Below, piece after piece: positions 30,694 to 36,223 of a DNA stretch of 38,385 bases. This stretch comes from a virus. The notes under the pieces are model-generated. The model made no database searches, had not been told where the DNA came from, and was given only the letters and a program-made list of their open reading frames with translations. The stretch is from positions 1 to 38,385 of the IMG/VR virus record IMGVR_UViG_3300025711_000005. One strand, given 5' to 3'. The position numbers and the translations under genes are program-made. The number at the start of each line of letters is the position of its first letter. The stretch's first letter is position 1.

Positions 30694-30998
30694 AGATTGA
30701 TTCTCCGGTTCGGTTCGCCGTGCGCATCCGTCGCGAATGTGTCTATGGCCCCAGGTGGGAGGAGCAATACGAACCGAGCACTGCCATCCCGCTGATTGCT
30801 GCGCGCGACGAGGCTATCCGCGAGCAGCTGGCGATCGAGACTGCCGAACTGCGCGCCGAGGTGGCGAGGCTGAAGGAAGATCTAAGATGCTCGCTGCAGC
30901 GCAATGTGGAGCTTGACGATGAATGCGAACGGCTAGCGGAACGCCTCGATGAGGCTGAGCAGGAATCCAAAGCGCTCAAGTTGGACTGGCCCGAATGA
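30690..30998 (+). CDS. Coiled-coil hypothetical protein
   Basis: A 102-residue protein with GTG start. A short beta region leads into a long coiled coil (about residues 45-97, for example ETAELRAEVARLKEDL), so it is probably an oligomer. Coupled to the nuclease gene that follows by ATGA. Function unknown. Confidence 0.68.
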   Translation: MKIDSPVRFAVRIRRECVYGPRWEEQYEPSTAIPLIAARDEAIREQLAIETAELRAEVARLKEDLRCSLQRNVELDDECERLAERLDEAEQESKALKLDWPE

Positions 30999-31474
30999 GA
31001 GCCCCCGCCGAGCGACCCTGCATATTGGTAGATTCTCGTGAGCAACTACCATGGAAGTTCTCGCCCGCTGTTCTCGTCGAACTAGGGGTATCGCTGCCAA
31101 CGTCGGATTATAGCTTGAAAGGAGCGACAGACATCGCGGCAATTGAGCGCAAGTCGATCCCGGATCTCGTGATGTCATGCGCGTCGAAGGAGCGTGACCG
31201 CTTCTGGGAGTGCATGCGGCGCCTATCTCAGTACCAATACAAGGCGCTGATAGTCGAGGGTTCAGCCGATGACATCTGGGCTGGTGCCTATCGCTCGATG
31301 GCGCAACCCAAGAGCGTGATGGCAACGACTCTCGCGATGCAGATCGACTTTGGTATTGGCGTGGTGTGGGCTGGAACACGGACGCAGGCCGCGTGGTCTT
31401 GCGAGTGGATGCTAACTAGGCTGCACAGGCGGCTGCAAGCGAAGGCGAAAGAGGCTGGAAAGGTGGAGAGATGA
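30995..31474 (+). CDS. ERCC4-domain DNA nuclease
   Basis: A 159-residue protein that matches the ERCC4/XPF nuclease core: ILVDSREQLPW (Asp13, Glu16), Asp38 in SDYSL, then IERKSIPDL (Glu51-Arg-Lys53, Asp57) and a conserved helical end. ERCC4 proteins cut branched or flapped DNA. It lacks the helix-hairpin-helix tail of cellular XPF, as phage versions often do. It lies among replication genes and may resolve or degrade branched intermediates; pairing with the annealing protein encoded leftward is my inference. Confidence 0.78.
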   Translation: MRAPAERPCILVDSREQLPWKFSPAVLVELGVSLPTSDYSLKGATDIAAIERKSIPDLVMSCASKERDRFWECMRRLSQYQYKALIVEGSADDIWAGAYRSMAQPKSVMATTLAMQIDFGIGVVWAGTRTQAAWSCEWMLTRLHRRLQAKAKEAGKVER

Positions 31475-31964: not shown

Positions 31965-32296
31965 TGGAAGACTCAGCAAAGAAACGCGCCGCTGACCTGG
32001 TGATGCGTACCGGGAAAGCAGCAGCTCACGCTGTGGATCGCTGGGCAGCAACCGACCTCGCGACTCTTACCGATGCGCTCGGCTTACCTGACGATCCGCA
32101 ACGGAAGGCTCTCTTTTTGGAGGACCTCACCGAAACGTATCTACGCGCGCTGAGCCACGTTGCGACTTCTACCTACGCGCTGTGTTTGTTGCAAGCAGAC
32201 GTTACCGAAGCGGGGCGCGTTTACCGATCTGAAGGGGTTCAACAGGAGCTACGAACCATGGCCATGCGTATAACCGAAGGCGTTCTATCAAAATGA
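31964..32296 (+). CDS. Helical hypothetical protein
   Basis: A 110-residue all-helical protein (DLVMRTGKAAAHAVDRWAAT, FLEDLTETYLRALSHVATST). The ATG shares its A with the previous TGA. GGAGG lies 10 bases upstream, and a GTG one codon earlier is equally possible. No family recognised. Confidence 0.65.
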   Translation: MEDSAKKRAADLVMRTGKAAAHAVDRWAATDLATLTDALGLPDDPQRKALFLEDLTETYLRALSHVATSTYALCLLQADVTEAGRVYRSEGVQQELRTMAMRITEGVLSK

Positions 32297-32847
32297 GTTT
32301 TCTCCTATCGCCTCTTCCCCACCGTAAAGCCATAGATCGAACTGGCGAGCGTCACGGCCGACTCCTCGTGACAAGTCGCGCCACGTTCGCCGGAAACCAG
32401 TCGCGATGGCATTGCCACTGCGACTGTGGCGCGGACTGCATTGTGTCGTGGGACCGGCTTCGTAGCGATCGCGCTGGAGTCATCCCGTCGTGCGGCTGCG
32501 TCCAGGCAGAAGCCCGAGAAAAGCGACTGGAAACGGAGCGCGGCATCACGGAACGATGCTGCATCCAATGCAAGCGGACCAAGCCGATTGGTGAGTTTAG
32601 GTTGAAGCAGAAGGGACGCGGCAGAGTCGTTCGAAGCGCGAAGTGCCGGCTGTGCCTGAATGCTCGCGAGCGGAACAGGAGGGCGGAGCTAACTAAGGAG
32701 GCGCATTGCGAGGAGTGCTTCGGAATAACGGATAGGCGCCCGCGGGTTGGGAAGTGTGCGTGTGGGGAGAGCTATGAGGAGGAACCGGCGTTCAGGGTGG
32801 AGATGTTCATCTATCGCGATCGCCGGCATGAGCGAGTCTGTTTGTGA
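32293..32847 (+). CDS. Multi-zinc-knuckle DNA-binding-like protein
   Basis: A 184-residue protein with three cysteine modules. The first (DRTGERHGRLLVTSRATFAG, then WHCHCDCGADCIVSWDRLRS and SCGC) is the N-terminal module that precedes AP2 or HNH domains in phage proteins. The second (CCIQCKRTKPIGEFRLKQKG, then CRLCLNAR) is the zinc ribbon seen in front of HNH endonucleases. The third is CEEC...CACG. No HNH or AP2 core follows, so it is either a stripped homing-endonuclease relative or a DNA-binding regulator. Confidence 0.62.
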   Translation: MSFLLSPLPHRKAIDRTGERHGRLLVTSRATFAGNQSRWHCHCDCGADCIVSWDRLRSDRAGVIPSCGCVQAEAREKRLETERGITERCCIQCKRTKPIGEFRLKQKGRGRVVRSAKCRLCLNARERNRRAELTKEAHCEECFGITDRRPRVGKCACGESYEEEPAFRVEMFIYRDRRHERVCL

Positions 32848-33212
32848 GGGTCATCGTTTGCGGCTGCAGAGATTGGGCTGACCCGAATATCATCTCAGTC
32901 CGACTTAACCAGCTTGTAAGCGCAAAGGGGCCGCTGATGATTGTCCATGGCGCATGCCCGACTGGAGCCGACTACTACGCGAGTCGCTTCGCTAATAGCC
33001 CAATGGGGCACTGCATCGAGGAGCGCCACCCGGCTGACTGGTCTCGAGGCCCGAGTGCAGGACCGGCTAGAAACCTACGGATGGCGGAGCTAGGGGCTGA
33101 CCTTTGCTTAGCATTCTGGGACGGATGCAGCGCAGGCACGCTGGACATGATCAGGCGCGCAGTGGCTCACGGGATCTCGGTGCGCATCGTACCTAAGAAT
33201 CAGGCTCGCTAG
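32844..33212 (+). CDS. SLOG-domain protein (DUF2493/YspA-like)
   Basis: A 122-residue Rossmann-like protein with the DUF2493 pattern: VIVCGCRDWADP at the N-terminus, the loop IVHGACPTGADYYASRF, then ERHPADWSRGPSAGPARNLR and LGADLCLAFWDG. SLOG proteins bind nucleotide-derived ligands such as ADP-ribose or NAD-related molecules and are found both in phage genomes and in host defence systems. Its job here is not known; nucleotide or signal handling is a fair guess. GTG start overlapping the previous stop. Confidence 0.78.
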   Translation: MRVIVCGCRDWADPNIISVRLNQLVSAKGPLMIVHGACPTGADYYASRFANSPMGHCIEERHPADWSRGPSAGPARNLRMAELGADLCLAFWDGCSAGTLDMIRRAVAHGISVRIVPKNQAR

Positions 33213-33522: not shown

Positions 33523-33683
33523 AGTTAAACATCCGACAGAAACAAGAAGACCTTGTTCAGCTCCAAGAGCTGGCCGCCCGTCTCAAGACTACGATCACCG
33601 GGGCAATCCGCCTCGCCGTAGCTGAGAAGCTGAATCGGGTGAAGGCTAAGCAGAAGGCGACCGAGCAGACAGAGGCCGCGTGA
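33504..33683 (+). CDS. Ribbon-helix-helix regulator ahead of the nuclease and helicase genes
   Basis: A 59-residue protein. RLQLNIRQKQEDLVQLQELA then RLKTTITGAIRLAVAEKLNR fits the strand-helix-helix layout of CopG/Arc proteins, followed by a Lys/Ala/Glu tail. It is the first gene after the predicted promoter and operator and is coupled to the PD-(D/E)XK gene by an overlapping stop and start (TGATG). It probably represses its own unit, and so sets the level of the nuclease and helicase. Confidence 0.7.
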   Translation: MKAPRLQLNIRQKQEDLVQLQELAARLKTTITGAIRLAVAEKLNRVKAKQKATEQTEAA

Positions 33684-34084
33684 TGCGTCCGAAAAACGAA
33701 TGGCTCACGCATGACCAATTGGTCTACGTGGTTCTAAAATCTCTACCGGCGGTGTTGGTCGAGATCGCTCCTCCTCTGCATCCAGATAATGAGATGCTGA
33801 CAGAGACGGAGATGCCACTAGGGCCTCTGTACGCTGATGTCGTGGCACGCATGCGCCACCATCAGGAAGGCGGGAAATGGGCTCTCATTGTCGAGGTGAA
33901 GAGCAATTTCGAGCAATGGAGCGCCGGGGCTGTAATCCGTCAGCTCAAGGGGTACCGAGAAAAGCTACGGCAAGACTACAGTAAAGTAAGCCTGGGGTTT
34001 TTCTGTGACCGCATTCTAACCGAGGAAGAAGTCTTCCTCTTTAATCACGAGAAGGTCGTACTGATCCAGGCGGCACCTCGGTGA
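33683..34084 (+). CDS. PD-(D/E)XK nuclease-like protein
   Basis: A 133-residue protein with the core nuclease pattern: LYADVVARM (Asp52), then a strand ALIVEVKS with Glu71-x-Lys73, then AVIRQLKGYRE with Gln87 and Tyr91. The N-terminal helix NEWLTHDQLVYVVLKS is like that in phage VRR-NUC-type and related small nucleases. It probably acts on phage DNA intermediates alongside the helicase; GTG at one codon upstream is an equal alternative start. It ends in a GTGA overlap with the helicase gene. Confidence 0.65.
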   Translation: MRPKNEWLTHDQLVYVVLKSLPAVLVEIAPPLHPDNEMLTETEMPLGPLYADVVARMRHHQEGGKWALIVEVKSNFEQWSAGAVIRQLKGYREKLRQDYSKVSLGFFCDRILTEEEVFLFNHEKVVLIQAAPR

Positions 34085-35511
34085 CCGATGACAACGTGAC
34101 TCCGATTGGGGCGGCAAAGCGCCGTAAGGTTGTCCCTGGCTCAGCCGAGGCGCTGATGGGGATGCTCTGCACGGATCTAGGGAACGCTGAGCGATTTGCT
34201 AGGCGCTGGAAAGGTGCCGTCCGCTACTGCCATGGGCGCAAGAAGTGGCTTATCTGGAGCAAAAGCCGCTGGGCCTGGGATGAAAACGGGCGGATCGAGC
34301 GGATGGCCAAGATGGTCGTTCGTGACCTATATGCCGAGGCGGCAAAGCACAAAGATACGGACGAGCGGTACCAGTTGAGCACGCATGCCCGTAACTCTGA
34401 GAAGGCCAGCGCGATCGCCAATATGCTCCGTCTGGCCCAGTCAGAAGACGGGATCCCGGTGGCGCTCGAGGAGCTGGATGCAAATCCACTATTGCTGAAC
34501 TGCGAAAACGGTACGGTCGATCTATCAACAGGGAAGCTAAAGCCTCACGACCAGGCAGACCTGATCACCAAGCTCTGTCCATGCTCATACGACAGGCTAT
34601 CCCGTAGTTCAGTGTGGGAGAAGTTCCTAGCCGATTCTACGGCCGGCGACCAGTCGCTGATGGACTACATCCAGCGCGCCGCTGGATACGCGATTCACGG
34701 CGAAGCTACAGAGCGAGCTCTATTCTTTACCTACGGTCCTCCTGGGTCGGCCAAGTCGACGCTGATAGATGCTCTCGGGGCCATGCTCGGGGATTATCAC
34801 ATGGCGACATCTCCAGACACCTGGCTCGTTCAGGCTCAGACAGGAGGCAACCGGGGAGATCTCGTCCGCCTTGCCGGCTCTCGTCTGGTGACGGCCGTAG
34901 AATTCAAGGAGGGGTCCAAGTTCGACGAGGCGCTAATCAAGTCGGTAACCGGTGGCGACGCTGTTACGGCGGCTGCCAAATATGAGGCAGAGGTCACGAT
35001 TCAGCCGACATTCACCTTATGGTTCGCGGCTAACGATTCGCCAGCAATTAGATCGGGGGACGAGGGCATGTGGGCTCGAATGCGCCGCATCCCGTTCAAC
35101 CACGTCATCCCGAAAGAGCAGCAGGACAAGAGCATCAAGCGCCAGCTCAAAAACGACCCAACATGCCGCGCAGCCGTGCTCGCATGGGCGGTCGCTGGGT
35201 TCACCAAGTGGCAAGCGGAGGGGCTCGGTTCTGCTCCGGCAATCGAGCAGAGCACCAAGGAGTACCAAGAGGAGATGGACCCCATCCGGGACTTCATCGA
35301 AGGCGAGCTTGTCTTCCATCCCGATGCAGATTCGACCCCAAAAGAAATCAGATTGGCTTACGACCAGTGGGCAAAGGAGGAAGGCGTCAAGAAAACACTG
35401 GGCCGGAAAGCGTTCCAGAAAGCGATTGAGGACAGAGGAGCTAAATACACGGCAACTAACGGGAAACGGAAGGTATTAGGGGTACGACGCAAGAGCGAGT
35501 TCGGAGAATGA
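34081..35511 (+). CDS. SF3 replicative helicase (D5/P4-type), without primase domain
   Basis: A 476-residue protein. The N-terminal 200 residues match the D5_N region (for example LEELDANPLLLNCENGTVDL, and VWEKFLADSTAGDQSLMDYI). The SF3 ATPase core follows: Walker A GPPGSAKST (219-227), a Walker B acidic stretch (TAVEFKEG, 271-278), and motif C LWFAANDSP with Asn318. P4-type proteins have a primase domain before this; here the N-terminus is too short for one, so priming must come from the host or another protein. The predicted origin lies 11 bases past the stop. Confidence 0.85.
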   Translation: MTDDNVTPIGAAKRRKVVPGSAEALMGMLCTDLGNAERFARRWKGAVRYCHGRKKWLIWSKSRWAWDENGRIERMAKMVVRDLYAEAAKHKDTDERYQLSTHARNSEKASAIANMLRLAQSEDGIPVALEELDANPLLLNCENGTVDLSTGKLKPHDQADLITKLCPCSYDRLSRSSVWEKFLADSTAGDQSLMDYIQRAAGYAIHGEATERALFFTYGPPGSAKSTLIDALGAMLGDYHMATSPDTWLVQAQTGGNRGDLVRLAGSRLVTAVEFKEGSKFDEALIKSVTGGDAVTAAAKYEAEVTIQPTFTLWFAANDSPAIRSGDEGMWARMRRIPFNHVIPKEQQDKSIKRQLKNDPTCRAAVLAWAVAGFTKWQAEGLGSAPAIEQSTKEYQEEMDPIRDFIEGELVFHPDADSTPKEIRLAYDQWAKEEGVKKTLGRKAFQKAIEDRGAKYTATNGKRKVLGVRRKSEFGE

Positions 35512-35521
35512 GAAGATGGCT

Positions 35522-35632
35522 CAGTGCAGGCAGTGCATAGCAGTGCAGTCAGTTTCAGGAAACTTTCTCATATATCTCTCGTGTGGAGGGTTTTACGGAA
35601 ACAGGGTGCACTGGGGTGCACTGAGTGCACTA
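35522..35632. other. Predicted replication origin: mirror-symmetric iterons
   Basis: CAGTGCA occurs at 35522, 35531 and 35541, and its reverse complement TGCACTG at 35607 and 35617, with TGCACTA (one mismatch) at 35626. Sums of paired repeat centres are all 71154, so the six sites are in exact mirror register about base 35577. Between them are a perfect dyad AGTTTC-AG-GAAACT, a GTTTC/GAAAC pair also in mirror register, and an AT-rich stretch (CTCATATATCTC). Six short repeats flanking an AT-rich centre next to an SF3 helicase gene fit an origin at which the helicase assembles as two rings. Confidence 0.62.
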
Positions 35633-35661
35633 AGGCAAATAGGTACAGTGGAAGGTGATAT

Positions 35662-35775
35662 ATGGTAATGTCAGGAAATGTGGGATTGGATGGCGTGCCA
35701 CGATCTTGCCGAATCGTGCTGCCCTCCCGCGCGCACGGGTCTCAGATGACCCAGGTCAGATTTGACCCAGTATGA
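35662..35775 (+). CDS. Very small hypothetical protein downstream of the origin
   Basis: A 37-residue frame (MVMSGNVGLDGVPRSCRIVL and 17 more) with GGAAGG six bases before its ATG and an ATGA overlap with the next frame, which is the genome's normal coupling style. It spans short repeats (TGACC boxes and a CACGAT/ATCGTG dyad), so the DNA may matter more than the peptide. Function unknown. Confidence 0.35.
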   Translation: MVMSGNVGLDGVPRSCRIVLPSRAHGSQMTQVRFDPV

Positions 35776-35909
35776 CCTCGCCCTACCTCAACCCCCGAGC
35801 GACCCCTAGCCAGCTCTCCCGCTGGGCAGACTGGATGCTGTCGAGCAGGTTCGTGGGGATCATGACAGCCGACGAGGTGGCGGGACTGCAACGGATGCTG
35901 GCCGGCTAG
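35772..35909 (+). CDS. Small hypothetical protein (45 residues)
   Basis: A 45-residue frame, MTSPYLNPRATPSQLSRWAD and 25 more, with a helical end rich in hydrophobic and acidic residues (MTADEVAGLQRMLA). It overlaps the previous frame by ATGA and reads like a genuine folded helix-turn-helix-sized peptide, but no family can be named. Confidence 0.5.
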   Translation: MTSPYLNPRATPSQLSRWADWMLSSRFVGIMTADEVAGLQRMLAG

Positions 35910-35948
35910 CCGAACTTATGGTCGATGTCGATTTCTGGTGGTGAGGGC

Positions 35949-35977
35949 TTGCGCTGGTATCCCAGCGGGCGTATACC
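35949..35977 (+). promoter_or_regulatory. Predicted promoter of the short early module, with an internal dyad
   Basis: TTGCGC, 17-base spacer, TATACC (four of six). The spacer is taken up by the perfect dyad CGCTGG-TATC-CCAGCG, an operator-sized repeat. The leader would be about 40 bases, ending in a strong GAGGAG ribosome site before the next gene. Unlike the other predicted promoters, this one is not leaderless. Confidence 0.45.
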
Positions 35978-36025
35978 TACTGAGTCAGCAGGCAATCACG
36001 CCGCGACGAAAGAGGAGCCCAGCAA

Positions 36026-36223
36026 ATGACCAACACCATCGCCACCAAGACCACCTACTACACCGTCACCTTCCTCTACCCGCAAGGCATCGAGCTCACG
36101 AGCAAGGAGTGCTTCGCCAGCCTGGACGACGCGAAGTCGTACGTCGGCCGTGAGATCGTGGCTGACGATGGCACGATGAACATCCGCCCTTTCCGCATCA
36201 ACACCCACACCGTCGGCGCCTGA
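36026..36223 (+). CDS. Small hypothetical protein of the early module
   Basis: A 65-residue protein with an alternating beta start (TTYYTVTFLYPQGIELTSKE) and helical centre (FASLDDAKSYVGREIV). GAGGAG is eight bases upstream of the ATG, the best ribosome site of this region, so it is likely made in high amount soon after infection. No family recognised. Confidence 0.7.
   Translation: MTNTIATKTTYYTVTFLYPQGIELTSKECFASLDDAKSYVGREIVADDGTMNIRPFRINTHTVGA

Follow-up and report, generated by a model that had tools for sequence, protein, structure and literature searches.

The closest described systems are mobile elements and plasmids in which short repeats or a stem-loop lie directly behind the gene of a replication helicase. 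PICI origins consist of an AT-rich region flanked by two iteron sets, located directly 3' of the rep gene, and the Rep protein of SaPIs uses its C-terminal domain to bind these iterons, apparently in the form of two hexamers (PMC6092414, PMC7581432). Cch2, a D5_N-type helicase of SCCmec elements, binds with its C-terminal domain to short direct repeats located directly behind its own gene and unwinds them, and binding requires the direct repeats alone, the inverted repeats being dispensable (PMC7581432). For the Sulfolobus plasmid pRN1, a region of approximately 100 bases located 3' of the gene for the primase-SF3 helicase, which carries a C-terminal winged helix, is required for replication. 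In the original description, the region is a stem-loop lacking iterons, the replication protein could not be shown to bind it specifically, and a stem change that abolished replication was rescued by restoring the stem symmetry (PMC4234260).

In phage P4, the crr region located directly behind the alpha gene is annotated as required in cis for replication, and the type 1 repeats annotated within it point in both directions, some of them at a distance of 9 bases. The origin of Streptococcus thermophilus phage Sfi21 is also reportedly near its primase gene. Head-to-head loading of two SF3 rings is known for SV40 T antigen and papilloma E1, and a fused primase is usual, but not universal, in D5/P4-type SF3 initiators. 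Here, an array of opposed iterons in the viral record IMGVR_UViG_3300025711_000005 was analysed over the whole stretch of 38,385 nt, hereafter referred to as the window.

An opposed iteron array behind the helicase gene

The array is located in an intergenic stretch delimited from the ORF list (35512..36025, no strand), in which no likely gene was found between the helicase stop codon and the ORF starting at 36026, with a GTG-start ORF (35938-36153) overlapping its end. Starting 10 bases past the stop codon, three copies of CAGTGCA on the + strand (L1, 35522..35528; L2, 35531..35537; L3, 35541..35547) face three inverse copies on the - strand, which read TGCACTG on the + strand in R1 (35607..35613) and R2 (35617..35623) and, with one mismatch, TGCACTA in R3 (35626..35632). 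All six words were recovered where an earlier sequence-only reading had placed them, and the mirror symmetry of the iteron centres about base 35577 was reproduced, with all three pair sums equal to 71154. The paired GTTTC (35552-35556) and GAAAC (35598-35602) were likewise present, as was the reported 14-base dyad AGTTTC-AG-GAAACT, located at 35551..35564 (no strand), whose GTTTC mirrors the GAAAC of the opposite side. The same reading had also stressed the precisely symmetric spacing of 9 and 10 bases, which is exact in the window but not conserved, with the arms being unequal in 5 of 21 well-scored relatives; since spacings are confined to 8-11 bases, the exact mirroring adds little alone.

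The array was evaluated with an opposed-pair score, in which a 7-base word present in two direct copies faces two inverse copies at a spacing of 8-13 and across a gap of 15-220 (maximum 42). The array reached the maximum possible score of 42/42, which was attained by none of 3000 dinucleotide shuffles (highest shuffle, 39), and it was the best place in the window, followed by a runner-up with a score of 36. The clustering of CAGTGCA, which had been proposed as a check, supported this result, as the word is not common and evenly spread: its seven exact copies in the window are no excess over the 6.45 expected, but five of the seven fall within 102 bases. The cumulative GC skew peaked near 36 kb, with swings of similar size elsewhere in the record.

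The core between the iteron sets comprises approximately 60 bases with 55% AT. It includes the proposed melting site, a stretch with 75% AT at 35560..35579 (no strand), a value matched by only 0.02% of the 20-base windows of the record (mean, 39%). The AT-rich stretch noted beside the axis thus ranks among the most AT-rich 20-base stretches of the record (top 0.02%). By eye, the dyad was not seen as an element common to the relatives. Long alternating purine-pyrimidine runs (TATATA, CGCGCG, ACACGCG) were observed in the cores of loci L003, L020, L025, L047, and L075, GC-rich phages included, and the longest run across the cores of relatives averaged 8.8 versus 6.4 in shuffles. As an origin feature of the present array, such a run was dropped (window p 0.46).

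The adjacent gene encodes a D5/P4-type SF3 helicase of a divergent phage

The gene preceding the array (34081..35511, + strand) encodes a protein of 476 aa, the proposed initiator, which was assigned to the D5/P4-type SF3 helicases by Pfam, PHROG, BLASTP, and AlphaFold. It matched D5_N (PF08706, 1.6e-33) and DUF5906 (PF19263, 5.7e-8) in Pfam and the DNA primase and phage primase/helicase families in PHROG, and its Walker A lysine, K225, was conserved. BLASTP detected similarity to P4 alpha (3e-9), and profile comparison matched pRN1 ORF904 (99.2%) and P4 alpha (98.8%), with both matches extending into the C-terminal region. Moreover, a profile of 51 homologues matched solved D5-type hexameric helicases, including PDB 7ola, which is labelled only 'DNA primase' in its record and which we take to be the SaPI5 initiator. 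The AlphaFold model (pLDDT 91.4) had its nearest solved folds among D5/PrimPol-type helicases, for which hexamers and dodecamers are known.

The model also contained, with high confidence, a C-terminal winged helix at residues about 386-471 (35236..35493, + strand) with the element order H-H-E-H-H-E-E, and a sequence search with the C-terminal domain alone against PDB returned no match. Judging from the model and by analogy with Cch2, this winged helix is most likely the iteron reader. Among the features of D5/P4-type SF3 initiators, the D5_N and helicase domains were thus found and the winged helix was modelled, whereas a fused primase domain was absent, as about 35 residues precede D5_N in the protein. 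The annotated primase/helicase relatives measure 519-871 aa, mostly >690 aa, and most annotated helicase relatives carry an N-terminal primase domain. Pfam searches with the scanned proteins of the record revealed no primase.

The presence of terminase large subunit and portal genes indicates that the record represents a phage rather than a satellite. PICI satellites lack a full structural gene set and depend on a helper, and the record has only the origin layout in common with them. The terminase large subunit (349-1878) had a single weak tblastn match across 50,697 phage records, implying that this phage is far from sequenced phages. Directly upstream of the helicase gene, a 134-residue protein (33680-34084) showed by eye a VEVKS...Q pattern resembling PD-(D/E)XK nucleases and matched no Pfam family; some relatives instead have, downstream of the origin, a gene for VRR-NUC or a Holliday-junction resolvase. 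In addition, the early genes at 30995-31474, 32293-32847, and 32844-33212 had matches to ERCC4 nuclease, HNH/endonuclease VII, and the YspA SLOG family.

Recurrence of the layout behind homologous helicases

Close relatives identifiable by protein motif were found in neither viral nor genome contigs, the exact array pattern had no match in viral contigs, and the DNA of the array region showed no similarity among phages. The layout was therefore compared at the level of helicase homologues, using 12 annotated phages and 80 viral contigs that were dereplicated by helicase similarity to 67 loci. Each locus was scored over the 450 bases that surround and follow the helicase stop codon, with nine further regions per locus as controls. 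Among the 67 loci, which were the best matches to the window helicase instead of being drawn at random from its family, the post-helicase region scored at least 39 in 28 and 42 in 15, versus zero to two loci at or above 39 in each control region. The iteron words vary between phages, the spacing is mostly 9 or 10 bases, and the core has a median length of 69 bases. Opposed arrays behind the helicase gene were found, for example, in Acidithiobacillus phage AcaML1 (word CTGACGGGT), Bacillus phage rho14 (TGTTACT), Lacticaseibacillus phage R24.1 (TGTGACGG), Methanoculleus virus Blf4 (GGCACGA), and Mycobacterium phage Strobilo (TGGACAG).

The absence of repeats behind related helicases had been named as evidence against an origin, and it was indeed the case for 30 of the 67 relatives by either of two tests, including BPP-1 and the Arthrobacter/Microbacterium phages L008 and L010, although the excess over the control regions was overwhelming. 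As such, the helicase family is not always array-bearing, and the relatives without an array may have their origin elsewhere or possess weaker repeats. A looser repeat-family test gained two loci over the opposed-pair test, and L080 and L012 appeared by eye as weak array cases. Similar helicase tails (e.g., YRIEDF) with no clear array behind the helicase were observed in L017, L018, L021, L030, L038, and L092, where the origin is probably located elsewhere.

For the 32 loci with strong arrays, word similarity was related to C-terminal identity after removal of ATPase identity (partial r 0.17, 7/1000 permutations), whereas the reverse test, in which C-terminal identity was removed, linked ATPase identity to no similarity of words (139/500 permutations). 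This sequence comparison suggests that the iteron words track the C-terminal domain and not the ATPase domain, with a modest effect.

The opposed-pair score was also applied to described elements, and it reached 34 for P4 crr and 38 for the pRN1 stem-loop (0/200 shuffles each), with pRN2 giving no score. In the pRN1 stem (locus L094, 5086-5181), ATGTCCATAGTGTCCA faces TGGACACTATGGACAT, so that a GTCCA-containing word present twice at a distance of 9 bases is opposed by two inverse copies at the same distance. From its sequence, the pRN1 stem-loop may represent opposed iterons and not an origin that acts by structure alone.

Proposed origin function and alternative explanations

The repeats, their position, the homology of the helicase, and the recurrence of the layout are direct observations. 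Considering that the array exceeds chance, is unique in the window, encloses an AT-rich stretch, and adjoins the helicase stop codon, that its layout recurs behind homologous helicases as well as in P4 crr and the pRN1 origin, and that SaPI/PICI and Cch2 provide precedents, it is very probably the replication origin of a phage that initiates with its own D5/P4-type SF3 helicase, which would bind the iterons and open the AT-rich core. The suggestion of a probable origin in the sequence-only reading was thus strengthened by opposed iterons behind homologous helicases far in excess of the controls and by the layout shared with P4 crr and the pRN1 origin.

In the proposed mechanism, the helicase would bind the 7-base iterons, most likely via its C-terminal winged helix, and, because the two iteron sets face each other, one helicase assembly would form on each side of the approximately 60-base core. 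After melting of the AT-rich stretch (35560-35579) by both assemblies, these would move off in opposite directions as two helicase rings, which would amount to double-hexamer loading with a bidirectional start and movement. The sequence-only reading had suggested such a head-to-head pair of rings, with three sites serving each ring. Primers would be supplied by a primase not identified in the record, perhaps that of the host.

A structure-driven origin would offer a different account, in which cruciform extrusion of the arms from supercoiled DNA would present a hairpin that the helicase reads instead of letters, as proposed for pRN1. The array strand folds strongly (-28.6 kcal/mol, z -6.2 against shuffles), in agreement with such an account, as is the rescue of pRN1 replication by restored stem symmetry (PMC4234260). 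However, complementarity about the axis is confined to the iterons (20/21 columns versus 1/9 in the spacers), as expected of binding sites rather than of a stem, the unequal arm spacing in the five relatives mentioned above indicates that a continuous stem is not the common feature, and the pRN1 stem is itself built of two repeats 9 bases apart; a cruciform is thus considered unlikely. The strong folding would also suit a terminator hairpin that ends the helicase transcript, and clustered repeats behind genes can be operators, through which a regulator would control transcription around the helicase gene. Such a transcriptional role is very unlikely, as no T-run follows the hairpin, the layout occurs behind the helicase in unrelated phages, and P4 and pRN1 share it in a region that is required there for replication (PMC4234260).

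It is extremely improbable that the array is due to chance or is a by-product, for example a site for recombination or phage attachment that has arm sites. Oriented arm repeats do occur at attachment sites, as in the annotated attP of P4, but none of the 3000 shuffles reached the score of the array, the scanned proteins (a subset of the ORFs) included no recognisable integrase, and the relatives show the same position behind the helicase.

Implications and comparison with known origins

Beyond this phage, we lean towards the view that D5/P4-type SF3 initiators have a general class of origin in common, in which opposed iterons approximately 9-10 bases apart enclose a core of approximately 45-105 bases directly behind the helicase gene. 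Such a class would extend over phages, satellites, an archaeal virus, and archaeal plasmids, and its words would have changed in step with the winged helix. If so, the stem-loop origin of pRN1 would belong to this class instead of forming a structural type of its own, and PICIs would not be alone in having the PICI layout. A layout described as peculiar to phage satellites is now found more widely, which suggests an initiation machinery common to satellites and phages. In practice, the array offers an origin that can be tested in a phage of which hardly any relatives have been sequenced, and opposed repeats approximately 9 bases apart directly behind a D5-type helicase could serve as an origin-finding rule for many phages. 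Moreover, the many natural helicase-iteron pairs represent a resource for learning the rule of DNA recognition by the winged helix, and head-to-head loading of SF3 rings becomes testable in simple phage systems.

Compared with the described systems, the Cch2 putative origin resembles the window in that a D5_N-type helicase has repeats directly behind its gene, but binding of Cch2 needs direct repeats alone. The pRN1 origin shares with the window a homologous helicase and repeats 9 bases apart that face inverse copies 3' of the helicase gene, whereas it was described without iterons and without demonstrable protein binding. P4 crr/ori1 likewise combines a homologous SF3 helicase with repeats directly behind its gene; unlike in the window, the cis elements of P4 are divided over ori1 and a duplicated crr, a primase is fused to alpha, and the repeat word differs. 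With SaPI/PICI origins such as those of SaPIbov1 and EcCICFT073, the array agrees in that it lies directly 3' of the initiator helicase gene, consistent with the published descriptions, and has opposed sets of short iterons (3 + 3 copies) with an AT-rich region between them. It differs from them in belonging to a phage with terminase and portal genes, in its repeat word, and in a helicase without a fused primase. The layout is that of the published SaPI/PICI origins, here occurring in a phage with a different repeat word.
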